NCBI RefSeq assembly: GCF_000374105.1
Contig: NZ_KB893650.1
Span: 1,831,145 to 1,895,144, forward strand
DNA: 64,000 nucleotides
From: Kangiella aquimarina DSM 16071
GTDB taxonomy: Bacteria > Pseudomonadota > Gammaproteobacteria > Enterobacterales > Kangiellaceae
Direction of reading: 5' to 3'
Of this stretch, positions 50,740 through 54,723 are shown one piece after another (positions within the stretch are counted from its first letter, which is position 1; each line of letters opens with the position of its first letter). The notes beneath the pieces were generated by a model, which searched no databases, was not told the origin of the DNA, and saw only the letters and a program-made list of their open reading frames with translations. Position numbers and translations under genes: made by a program.

Positions 50740-50902
50740 AAGACAACTCCACAAATAACTTATGTTTGGGCTATGCGGAGTAACAACAGAAAAGACAGAA
50801 ACTTGCAGCGGTTAAACTAACCAGACTTAATCCCTGTCGATAAATGGCTTAAGGTCGAGAATAATAAGCCAGAATCCCAAAATGCAATATCTCTGAACTC
50901 CC

Positions 50903-51010
50903 TGTCCCTACGCCGGTATAACCCGGATCAGGTTCTAAGGGTCTGGCGCTCAAGCAATCACAAACAGTAATCGCAATGAGCCTCATCTCAGGCTAAAAGC
51001 CACCCCTCGG
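50903..51010 (-). ncRNA. TPP (thiamine pyrophosphate) riboswitch
   Basis: On the minus strand the THI-element core is clear: GGGGTGGC at the P2 start, CTGAGATGAGG, a variable P3 arm, then ACCCTTAGAACCTGATC, GGGTTATACCGGCGTAGGGA. These match the conserved CUGAGA and ACCUGAUC...GCGUAGGGA boxes. It precedes the TonB-receptor operon by about 160 nt. Binding of TPP should turn off the operon. Confidence 0.95.
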
Positions 51011-51021
51011 GAATGCCCGAC

Positions 51022-51050: not shown

Positions 51051-51090
51051 ATGGAAAGATATGTGGTGGTAATACAGGTGTTTTGGATGG

Positions 51091-51116
51091 CCGTAGGGTG
51101 CGTCGCGACGCACCGC
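51091..51116. repeat. REP-like palindrome, copy 2
   Basis: GGTGCGTCGCGACGCACC (51097-51114) is a perfect 18-bp palindrome, preceded by GTAG. It shares GTAGGGTGCGTCG with copy 1 at 6751-6788 (read on its minus strand). Confidence 0.7.
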
Positions 51117-51141
51117 TCTTGGAGCTATATGTAGATTAACT

Positions 51142-51176
51142 GGTGCATCTCGACGCAGGTCCTAGCCTAGGAGCAC
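51142..51176 (+). repeat. REP-like element, copy 3
   Basis: GGTGCATCTCGACGCAGGTC... followed by CTAGCCTAGGAGCA. It matches 52044-52084 in direct orientation with about four changes over the first 24 bases. The two bracket the ankyrin gene. Confidence 0.6.
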
Positions 51177-51194
51177 ACCCACCATACTGTAACT

Positions 51195-51968
51195 CTATTG
51201 AACACCTAAAGCTTCTTTACATATTTTTATGCTGACCTCATCACTTGTGCAAGCTGGCAAAGTTACAATATCCTTAATATACTGCTTTTCTATGGGAGAT
51301 TTAGAATCATTCAAGACAAGGGACAAGAAGTCATGTTTTAGAGATGAATCTTTTATTTCACTTATTAAATCCAAAATAGAATACGCATAAGGCACACCTG
51401 AATATGGATTCTTATCATTTAAATCAGTTATGCTTACAATTTTATTTACCATAGCAACATCGAGCCTTTCAATGGCATAGGTAAGTGCTTTTTTATTTCC
51501 ACCATCAATAAGATCAGAGTCAACACCATTCTCTAGTAAGTAATCTGCCAATTCATGATGTTGATAAAATGCAGCCCAATGCAATATTGTCTCACCAAAT
51601 CTACTATAAGCTTTAAGGTCATCAACTTGTTTTGCAAGTGGCATAACACAATCAAGCTTGTCGTTACTTAACAAATAAAATATCGCATCATGCAACTGAC
51701 TATCATTAAGATTGCTAGAGCCTTTTTTATTATTCTGAATAACACTTAAGAGGGCTTTATCGTTATTGTTAACACATGAATACACCATCAAGTGATACAG
51801 TTCATCGGGACTTAAATCTGTAGTATTTAACCCTTTCTCTAGAGTTTTCCCATCCTTGATATAAACTAGCTCATTAATTGCATCTGGATATTGTGATGCA
51901 AGCAGATTGCTCCCTGTGAACAACATCATTGTGAATATAAAAATCTTCATCACCAAACCTCGAAACAT
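51195..51968 (-). CDS. Secreted ankyrin-repeat protein
   Basis: The 257-residue protein has a signal peptide (MFRGLVMKIFIFTMMLFTGSNLLAS). In its middle are ankyrin-type repeats, for example GETILHWAAFYQHHELADYLLENGVD and a degenerate one after it. Five Cys lie in the mature part, two pairs near the C-terminus, suggesting periplasmic disulfides. The ATG at 51966-51968 with AGAGG is preferred to an upstream start (52013); a second ATG six codons later is possible. REP-like repeats lie on both sides. Function unknown; such proteins bind other proteins. Confidence 0.7.
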   Translation of the reverse strand: MFRGLVMKIFIFTMMLFTGSNLLASQYPDAINELVYIKDGKTLEKGLNTTDLSPDELYHLMVYSCVNNNDKALLSVIQNNKKGSSNLNDSQLHDAIFYLLSNDKLDCVMPLAKQVDDLKAYSRFGETILHWAAFYQHHELADYLLENGVDSDLIDGGNKKALTYAIERLDVAMVNKIVSITDLNDKNPYSGVPYAYSILDLISEIKDSSLKHDFLSLVLNDSKSPIEKQYIKDIVTLPACTSDEVSIKICKEALGVQ

Positions 51969-52043
51969 ACTAACCTCTTTAATTATTGTATTAATTTTAC
52001 AAGCATAGGACATCCTAGCTCAGGAGCCGCCTACTAATTTATT

Positions 52044-52084
52044 GGTGCCTCTCGGCGCAGATCCTGCCCTATGGGTACCCTACG
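52044..52084 (+). repeat. REP-like element, copy 4
   Basis: GGTGCCTCTCGGCGCAGATC, then CTGCCC, TA, TGGGTACCCTAC. Aligns with copies 1 and 3. Lies between the ankyrin gene and the next ORF. Confidence 0.6.
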
Positions 52085-52090
52085 AAAAGC

Positions 52091-52597
52091 TTAATTTTCA
52101 ATAACGAAATCCCCTAACAGCCCCTCCTTAACATAAACCCTCTTATGAGATGAATCATCATTGGTATAAAAGATAACAACCCAAATTTTAGGTCTTAGCA
52201 GATCAAATGATCGTTTTGCGCGAGTATTAATCTTGATATCTTTAATGTTATCGAATTTGCTCTCTAGAAGAACTCTAATTTCTTCCTCTACAACAAGAGT
52301 CGGCTCCACCTTCCTATCCTCTATAGGGTAATACTTCTGAGTGACTATGACGCCTGCCGAAAAGGCAACAAAACACACGAAAGTGAGCTTATTCTTTAGG
52401 ATAAACTTTAAAGTAGTAACGATTAAAAAAGCCAAGCCTACTAAAGAGAATAAGAGGAACGACTCAATAAACATTGTTCCGTGGTCGGTGGAATGAGGAG
52501 CGGAAAGGTAAAACAAACCAGCACCAATTAAAAAACTGAGAGCTGACTGCCAAGTAACTTTTAATATAATCTTTGAAATTTGATAATTATCATCCAT
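52091..52597 (-). CDS. Hypothetical membrane protein
   Basis: Not recognised. The 168-residue product has three hydrophobic segments (about residues 18-33, 43-66, 71-86) and a C-terminal soluble part of about 75 residues, rich in charged residues and beta-strand-like. It lies between the ankyrin gene and the three paralogues and runs in the same direction. The composition is AT-rich with Lys/Ile, unlike the fab genes. No function is proposed. Confidence 0.6.
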   Translation of the reverse strand: MDDNYQISKIILKVTWQSALSFLIGAGLFYLSAPHSTDHGTMFIESFLLFSLVGLAFLIVTTLKFILKNKLTFVCFVAFSAGVIVTQKYYPIEDRKVEPTLVVEEEIRVLLESKFDNIKDIKINTRAKRSFDLLRPKIWVVIFYTNDDSSHKRVYVKEGLLGDFVIEN

Positions 52598-52678
52598 GAG
52601 TGGCTCACCCCTACGTTTTAAGTAAAAATATATCTAGATTTTTATGTGCTTAAAATTATACTAAGCACAAACGAATCC

Positions 52679-53197
52679 TCATAAACCAGTAGCTTCTTTT
52701 AGTTTTTTGTATCTACTTGCATAAATTGCAGCAAATCTTTCATGAGCTTGCATGACTTTATAGCTTTTAGAGTCTTTGGTTATTAGGCTAGTAATATAAT
52801 CACTTTTGAAGTCTCTCCTCGTCATACCTTCATCAAAACCAGAATAGTAGTTGTGGTGATTTTTAGTAGATTTGAGACTTTCTAATTCCTCGAATTCGAT
52901 ATTAAGAAGTCGTGCGAACACTATTACTCTCTTATAAGTGATAACCTTTTTATCTAAGTAGAAAGTTGTAATCCTGTAATTTAGACAAAAGGATATACAC
53001 AGCAACCCCGCGACAATAGCAAGTATTAGCTGGCCTGCATTTTCCGAATCGAACTCAGGAAACCAGTATTGTTTAACAATATAAACAGCCCAAACAATTG
53101 CAGCCATTAAACCTAAATACCCAATTAAATTGGCAATGTTTGAGGGCTTGTCAGAGATTATTATTTTATTGTTTTCATTTATGTATGAGTAATTCAT
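52679..53197 (-). CDS. Two-TM membrane protein, tandem paralogue A
   Basis: Unrecognised family. The 172-residue product has a short polar N-terminus (NENNKIIISDKPS), two transmembrane helices (about residues 25-45 and 58-76) with YWFPEFDSENAG between them, and a soluble domain ending KLKEATGL. It is the most diverged of three adjacent paralogues (A 52679-53197, B 53254-53784, C 53914-54429). The layout, two helices followed by a beta-rich domain, resembles bacterial PH-like membrane proteins, but no decisive motif is seen. Confidence 0.65.
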   Translation of the reverse strand: MNYSYINENNKIIISDKPSNIANLIGYLGLMAAIVWAVYIVKQYWFPEFDSENAGQLILAIVAGLLCISFCLNYRITTFYLDKKVITYKRVIVFARLLNIEFEELESLKSTKNHHNYYSGFDEGMTRRDFKSDYITSLITKDSKSYKVMQAHERFAAIYASRYKKLKEATGL

Positions 53198-53253
53198 TTT
53201 TTCCCTTATGTAACTTAATGAACCATGTGGTAAGAGTATACTTAAAGTAAAGC

Positions 53254-53784
53254 TTAACTATCCAATAAGACTAAACCTGTTCTTTTTCTAAGCATATTAA
53301 GGTATTCGAAGTATTTTTCCCAAAACCTTCCATGTATATGGAACAGTTTAATTTTTTTACCTGAGTTTAAGACTAGGAAAGAACTAAAACTATGGTTAGG
53401 AGAGATATGTTCTCTATTCCTATATTGCCCCCCATAAGAGTGATCATTTCTTACCGACTTAACCCCTATCACCTCCCACATTTTTAAATAAATCGTTCTT
53501 GAAAAGACCAGGTGCTTTACAATTATTATACTGTCAGACTTTAGATCGAAATAAACTGTTTTATAGTTGAAACTAAAAAATACAGTCAACGCTATAAGTA
53601 AAACTGGATAGAATGCCCATCCCGCATTCTTAGTATCGAATTCAGGGAGCCAGTACTGATATACGATGTAGGCTAACCATAGAAAAGCAAAAATCAATAA
53701 TAAAGAACCTATGACTCTACCTTTTAAGCTAGGTTTATTACTTATTGTTATCACATCATTTTTGTCTGAAAATTTATAAGTCAT
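53254..53784 (-). CDS. Two-TM membrane protein, tandem paralogue B
   Basis: Paralogue of A and C, 176 residues. It shares with C the string NDH/ADH-x-YGG-x-YRNREH-x2-PNHSF, then LVL-x-(N/S)G-x-KIKLF and an HG-x4-EKY-x-(E/K)YL pattern, and with both A and C the YW-(L/F)-P-(E/D)-FD-x3-NAG loop between helices. The extension after TGL (VLLDS) is unique to B. The conserved His, Tyr and Arg residues in the soluble part suggest a shared ligand or partner. Function unknown. Confidence 0.65.
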   Translation of the reverse strand: MTYKFSDKNDVITISNKPSLKGRVIGSLLLIFAFLWLAYIVYQYWLPEFDTKNAGWAFYPVLLIALTVFFSFNYKTVYFDLKSDSIIIVKHLVFSRTIYLKMWEVIGVKSVRNDHSYGGQYRNREHISPNHSFSSFLVLNSGKKIKLFHIHGRFWEKYFEYLNMLRKRTGLVLLDS

Positions 53785-53913
53785 TTCTTTTATTACTTAT
53801 TAGAGTTATTTAGCAGCAATCCATCAATCTACTGCTTTTAAAGCACGAATTGAAGCTTAGATTAAACTTTCGTTAATTGTCTTTTATTATAGCTCGAATA
53901 CCTTAGCTTGAGC

Positions 53914-54429
53914 TTATAGTCCAGTAACCACTTTCAATTCGTTCAAGTACTTAACATACTTTTCACCATAAGTTCCATGGGCCTGAAATAATTTAATCCT
54001 CTGCCCATTTTCAAGAACTAGATAACTAATAAAGCTATGATTAGGTTGCAAATGCTCTCTATTCCTGTAGTTTCCACCATAAGTATGGTCAGCCCTAATT
54101 GAAGATATTTCTTGTACTTCTGAAAAGCTAAAATGCAGTTTTTTTTGAAAAACCCGCGTGAGTTCAAGAGTGATTCGTTTTTTTTGCACATCTACGATTA
54201 TAGTTTTATAAGTAAAACAAAAGTAGCAAGTAAGAAGTATCAGGACAATAGGAAAGATTGCAGCCCCCGCATTATCCCTGTCGAAATCAGGAAACCAATA
54301 AGCATATAAGATGTAACCAAGCCATAAAATCGACAGCAGTATAAGCAGCTTCCCTATCAGGCTACCTGTAGGGGTGACTTTATTGCTAAGTCGAACAATA
54401 TTATTTTCGTGAGAATATGTATAATTCAT
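53914..54429 (-). CDS. Two-TM membrane protein, tandem paralogue C
   Basis: Third paralogue, 171 residues, closest to B in the soluble domain (YGGNYRNREHLQPNHSF, GQRIKLFQAHGTYGEKYVKYL). The loop between the helices is YWFPDFDRDNAG. The gene is separated from B by 129 bp of AT-rich DNA without a clear terminator, so each copy may carry its own leader. Repeated duplication with divergence suggests selection for variants. The 294 bp from here to the asparaginase start hold no gene. Confidence 0.65.
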   Translation of the reverse strand: MNYTYSHENNIVRLSNKVTPTGSLIGKLLILLSILWLGYILYAYWFPDFDRDNAGAAIFPIVLILLTCYFCFTYKTIIVDVQKKRITLELTRVFQKKLHFSFSEVQEISSIRADHTYGGNYRNREHLQPNHSFISYLVLENGQRIKLFQAHGTYGEKYVKYLNELKVVTGL

Positions 54430-54723
54430 TCTTGTTTATTTAAGTAAAAAGATGTTAAACATTTTAAAGCGTGTTCAGAAAGCACCTACCCTACTTCTAA
54501 AATATCAATTTGTCACGCAGCACTTAAATCAAGCTTATACAAATTACTTCGCCTTAATGTTCTCTTCACTTGCTATTTATCATAATTACTCCGCATGGAT
54601 AACCAGACTATAAGTTATTTGAACACGACTTCTTTATCCCTCTAATAAAAGTTATACTTCTGCCAACTTGTTGAATATACGAATGTCTCCCCTTACGCGG
54701 GATTGGCAAAGATTGAGCAATCT

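Follow-up and report, generated by a model that had tools for sequence, protein, structure and literature searches.

The locus addressed here raises the question of what is done by three small, adjacent genes (A, B and C) whose products had been recognized from the sequence only as tandem paralogues of a two-transmembrane family. These genes belong to a window of 64,000 nucleotides from Kangiella aquimarina DSM 16071, which is the whole stretch of DNA that was analysed (Table 1). The three neighbouring paralogues of 171–176 residues proposed by the original prediction are indeed open reading frames with exactly the predicted boundaries. In pairwise protein alignments, A and B are 33–35% identical, A and C 35% and B and C 48%, with scores that exceed those of shuffled sequences by 20, 20 and 35 SD, respectively. 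Therefore, the three proteins are homologous and their likeness is not due to chance. Each of them carries two hydrophobic segments (approximately residues 18–80), as had been proposed, and a loop motif common to all three, YW[FL]P[DE]FDx2NAG, is located between the two membrane helices. This loop had been correctly noticed but with a spacing of three variable residues, where two are found. A second block, YGGxYRNREHxxPNHSF, is present in B and C and missing in A, as first described; its equivalent in the copy from another Kangiella species (see below) reads YDGHYRQREH. The genes are separated by 56 and 129 bases, and C is probably the first of the three in the direction of transcription. Judging solely from their common strand and spacing, C, B, A, gene D and the ankyrin-repeat gene may form one transcription unit; promoter and terminator scans around A–C gave nothing beyond what is obtained with shuffled sequence.

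Table 1. Coordinates of the A–C genes, their neighbours and the surrounding island (numbered from the first nucleotide of the window)
Feature	Coordinates	Strand	Description
Variable island	51061..54620		3.6 kb, AT-rich; holds A–C, D and the ankyrin gene
Ankyrin-repeat protein	51195..52013	-	Probable signal peptide
Gene D	52091..52597	-	168 aa membrane protein; unmatched by the A–C profile
Gene A	52679..53197	-	172 aa ORF; most diverged paralogue, without the YGGxYRNREH block; model topology as for C
Gene B	53254..53784	-	176 aa ORF; paralogue nearest to the single copy of the congener G018
Gene C	53914..54429	-	171 aa ORF; predicted split-PH protein with two TM helices
Loop of C, YWFPDFDRDNAG	54265..54300	-	Between both membrane helices (motif, model, charge count)

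Do these proteins belong to a described family? None had been recognized at first, and the library searches agree, since no model of Pfam, NCBIfam, PADLOC or PHROGs matches A, B or C at its cut-off or with a significant E-value. Their sub-threshold matches are scattered among families (for example, A matches PuhB, a photosynthetic assembly protein, with E 0.12). A–C do not reach the curated Pfam cut-off of bPH_2 (PF03703) and have no Pfam match to YcxB (PF14317), for which the profile comparison with two YcxB-type proteins gave E 0.23 and a probability of 0.3%. Likewise, the EROS/Ycf4 Pfam model was unmatched by four family members at E-values up to 10, in searches whose HMMER filters drop weak matches. 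Searching the PDB by sequence only returned chance matches to light-harvesting proteins and SecY, above E 1. No significant match was found in a viral structure library, and nothing was found by scanning viral contigs or by tblastn of phages (with B) and plasmids (with C). Scans of genome contigs returned no relative of A–C, not even one resembling the G018 copy, and are hence weak negatives.

Profile searches for additional relatives covered 398 genomes of the phylum and 295 of the order and yielded weak matches only, most of them artefacts. Three of them, from one genus (L061, L063 and L064), are frames filled with stop codons that lie next to a dihydrofolate reductase-like gene or on its opposite strand, and four others are SecY proteins (L052, L053 and L054) and a multidrug-type transporter (L055), matched through their membrane-helix composition. 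Three further weak matches, intact frames from other genomes (L060, L062 and L066), are YdbS/YdbT-type membrane proteins whose alignment with the family is in register and runs from the second TM helix into the opening strands of the PH domain; two of them (L060 and L062) score as bPH_2 in Pfam. In profile comparisons the link to bPH_2 is weak, with E-values of 2e-4 to 0.01 per genome and hhalign probabilities of 34% with L060 and 1.7% with the genome's own YdbS. These matches are taken as pointing towards the bacterial membrane PH superfamily and not as membership of it.

A PH-like fold had also been suggested for these proteins, and a PH domain is obtained both in AlphaFold2 models and in the structure searches made with them. 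The models of C and A have a moderate mean pLDDT (77.6 and 70.5, respectively) and are not independent, as both were built from one alignment of three sequences, the two proteins being 35% identical. In both models, strands at residues 4–8 and 11–15 are followed by helices at 20–45 and 51–72, six strands extending to residue 151 or 152, and a C-terminal helix, which gives the order strands 1–2, two long helices, strands 3–8 and C-terminal helix. Residues around 117–128, where B and C have the YGGxYRNREH block, show a pLDDT under 50. For each model, the sole PDB match with an E-value under 0.001 is human EROS/CYBC1 (8kei_D, in complex with NOX2), matched over the full length with E 5.3e-6 and TM 0.59/0.61 for C and with E 8.2e-5 and TM 0.47/0.49 for A. 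VIA-align 2 aligned 150 residues with EROS at 4.2–4.3 Å, with Z 11.5 for C and 11.3 for A, the next rows having Z 8.1 and 7.7, respectively. Below EROS, PH domains, including the bacterial 3hsa and 3dcx, fill most ranks of the list obtained with C, and the next rows obtained with A are membrane-helix fragments interspersed with PH domains.

The PH domain of EROS is made of residues 1–20 (strands 1–2) and 62–166 (strands 3–8 and helices), two integral membrane helices being located between strands 2 and 3 (PMC9767466). This split of the PH domain by a TM hairpin, which is a trait of EROS/Ycf4, is found in the predicted models of C and A, and so is the arrangement of bPH_2 proteins, in which a cytoplasmic PH domain comes after TM helices. 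According to a positive-inside charge count, the PH side would face the cytoplasm and the acidic side, which carries the conserved loop, the periplasm, where this loop is probably located. Globally, the models make it very likely that A, B and C are PH domains into which a membrane hairpin is inserted between strands 2 and 3.

The distribution of the family is that of an accessory gene and not, as a housekeeping function would suggest, of a single copy conserved among relatives. The genome carries exactly three copies, and only one of the 19 congeners (G018) carries the family. This congener has one copy, which shares 62% identity with B and lies at a different locus, with a tRNA gene (by eye, probably tRNA-Glu) about 0.5 kb away. 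No other copy was found in approximately 1,000 proteobacterial genomes (family, class, phylum and order sets, partly overlapping), a rarity that rests on whole-genome searches sampling species. B is closer to the copy of G018 than to either of its two paralogues, so that the duplications came before the split between B and this copy. The repeats between B and C at the DNA level are only 72% identical, and these two genes are therefore not recent copies; furthermore, synonymous change is saturated between the three paralogues. Comparison of B with the copy of G018 (dN 0.23, dS 1.24, dN/dS about 0.19) indicates that this pair is under purifying selection. The original prediction had attributed the duplications to an ongoing selection for variants, which does not agree with old copies, saturated synonymous sites and purifying selection. 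No sign of recent amplification or of diversifying selection was found among the four sequences, a number that still leaves selection at single sites possible.

A, B and C are carried by a short acquired island. When the DNA is compared with that of the three closest species (G017, G019 and G027), similarity ends at about 51060 and restarts at about 54620, and the G+C content is 32–40% in the island versus about 44–49% outside. At the same position, G017 harbours three genes, the PADLOC candidate defence genes PDC-M34A/B and a gene encoding 467 aa, and G019 and G027 harbour genes encoding a lipase-like protein and small lipoproteins. Each of the four close species thus has a different cargo of small genes, and the island is a gene-turnover hotspot located between a TonB-dependent receptor gene with a TPP riboswitch and ansA. 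Its content looks like accessory cargo, possibly related to conflict. The riboswitch (50887–51017, 67.9 bits) lies upstream of the receptor gene, and PnuC-like and kinase-like genes lie downstream; therefore, this neighbouring region is probably involved in thiamine uptake.

The island also carries short palindromes of the GTAGGGTGCGTCGCGACGCACC type (51093–51114 and 52040–52066), a putative REP-like element that recurs in the equivalent islands of relatives (L030, L031 and L032). A simple scan for attC-like sites gave no match in the island, nor any next to the integron integrase that the genome itself encodes. This integrase, which scores over the family cut-off (L073:17494–18459; G000:C1:342508–343455), has counterparts such that 9 of the 20 genomes of the genus encode one, and a YcxB-family gene is located about 9 kb from it. 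The ankyrin-repeat protein, whose gene was not found in the 19 congeners searched, is possibly periplasmic.

Gene D belongs to a family of small membrane proteins that is present in the genus in many divergent copies, some of them in tandem, with three copies in its own genome and six matches in G017. Family members occur in L082, L083, L084 and L086 (from G000, G017 and G025), and several lie beside defence-type genes, which are type I restriction-like, E2/JAB or transposition-like. D may be a better candidate than A–C for an immunity array. In G017, secreted cadherin-like proteins are encoded next to relatives of D. A toxin role was envisaged for them and rejected, since their repeats are of the Ig/cadherin type, a toxin domain is lacking and the pairing with D is not kept elsewhere.

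What, then, could A, B and C do? By analogy, the proposal that they are accessory inner-membrane proteins that bind partners, and that they form a lineage-restricted family of the bacterial membrane PH-domain superfamily, has in our view about an even chance of being right. In this proposal, a two-helix membrane hairpin with a short, conserved periplasmic loop would interrupt the cytoplasmic PH domain after strand 2. In EROS, helices H1/H2 contact TM2 and TM6 of NOX2 and the strands contact its dehydrogenase domain, and NOX2 is held in an inactive state (PMC13296129). If A–C act similarly, their helix pair would pack against the membrane helices of the partner and their PH sheet would grip its cytoplasmic part, so that the membrane partner would be stabilized, kept inactive or blocked; the chances of such a clamping by hairpin and PH sheet appear evenly balanced. 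Each of the three proteins would have its own partner, a specificity that is assumed. A protective role, in which the inner membrane or a membrane protein would be guarded as by immunity or resistance proteins, is proposed more tentatively from the genomic context and falls short of an even chance. It is nevertheless the most likely role, as the genes are accessory, borne by an island and kept as three diverged copies. As the distribution is accessory, a foreign partner (immunity) is favoured over a protein of the cell itself (chaperone).

A rival reading is an immunity array, in which the three copies would be orphan immunity genes, each neutralizing a particular membrane-acting toxin or bacteriocin delivered by a competitor. 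The immunity or sensing role raised by the original prediction is possible, and accessory, tandem and diverged genes in a hotspot with candidate defence cargo in G017, lipase-like and lipoprotein cargo in G019 and G027, and a multi-copy neighbour family (D) found elsewhere beside defence-type genes would fit such an array. However, A–C are adjoined by the ankyrin-repeat gene, D, ansA and the TonB receptor gene, with no toxin, secretion or signalling gene among these neighbours, and the sole pair that can be compared (B and the copy of G018) is under purifying and not diversifying selection. The CDI immunity protein 6cp9 does appear in the structure lists, but low, far below EROS and without significance. 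An immunity array is thus a possible but rather doubtful explanation.

The in-register match to YdbS/YdbT proteins brings in another function, as bPH2 proteins with two and six TM helices, DdE and DdF, are involved in the transport of the leaderless bacteriocin enterocin DD14 (PMC8657885). By analogy with these pairs, A–C could help in transport of, or resistance to, antimicrobial peptides. This is unlikely, as a YdbS/YdbT pair is already encoded elsewhere in the genome and as the island carries neither a long YdbT-type partner nor an ABC transporter.

Still less likely is a putative assembly factor or chaperone for a membrane complex of the cell, in the strict sense of EROS and Ycf4. Although the best structural match of A–C is a NOX2 chaperone for which orthology with Ycf4, an assembly factor of photosystem I, has been described (PMC5379978), and A has the sub-threshold match to PuhB mentioned above, such a factor should be conserved with its client, yet 18 of the 19 congeners lack the family, and no membrane redox gene adjoins A–C. 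A broader version, in which A–C would be true bacterial EROS-type chaperones, each tandem copy clamping a different inner-membrane client through its split PH domain (for example, a haem/flavin redox protein, or a membrane protein of a phage or a toxin), seems improbable. If it were true, EROS-like clamping would be a general means of controlling membrane proteins, used in bacterial conflict. Finally, selfish or neutral cargo, kept through the fast turnover of the hotspot without any specific host function, would agree with the quick replacement of island content between close species but hardly with three frames still intact after synonymous saturation and a dN/dS of about 0.19 for B, and is the least credible explanation.

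The favoured reading, accessory proteins that bind membrane partners, can be placed among known systems. The PHb domains of PF08000 (3hsa and 3dcx; Z about 8 for C) share the PH sheet and helix but belong to soluble ring-forming proteins without inserted membrane hairpin (PMC2817789). The YcxB-like proteins (PF14317), one of which is encoded by the same genome (in L072), resemble A–C in their length of about 170 aa and in a two-helix hydrophobic segment that precedes the C-terminal domain. The bPH_2 proteins, including YdbS/YdbT and DdE/DdF, have two membrane helices directly before a cytoplasmic PH domain, whereas the hairpin of A–C is predicted to be preceded by a pair of N-terminal strands and to carry a conserved loop on the periplasmic side, and A–C have no YdbT partner. 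If the function of A–C were only that of a generic membrane anchor, these proteins would be an unnamed family and little more. EROS/CYBC1, published relatives of which in sequence or predicted layout are Ycf4 and PIGH, is similar in length (164 modelled residues versus 171–176) and has the layout predicted for A–C: a PH domain in which an antiparallel pair of membrane helices follows strand 2, with strands 3–8 and a C-terminal helix coming next. In contrast with EROS, to which they are 10% identical, which leaves common descent with EROS itself unproven, A–C are bacterial, accessory and present as three tandem copies, with no NOX or photosystem client in sight. A small and rare family that has the EROS layout and not that of ordinary bPH proteins would be a compact test case of whether this layout means clamping of a membrane partner, and the location of A–C hints that such clamps may pass between bacteria on islands.
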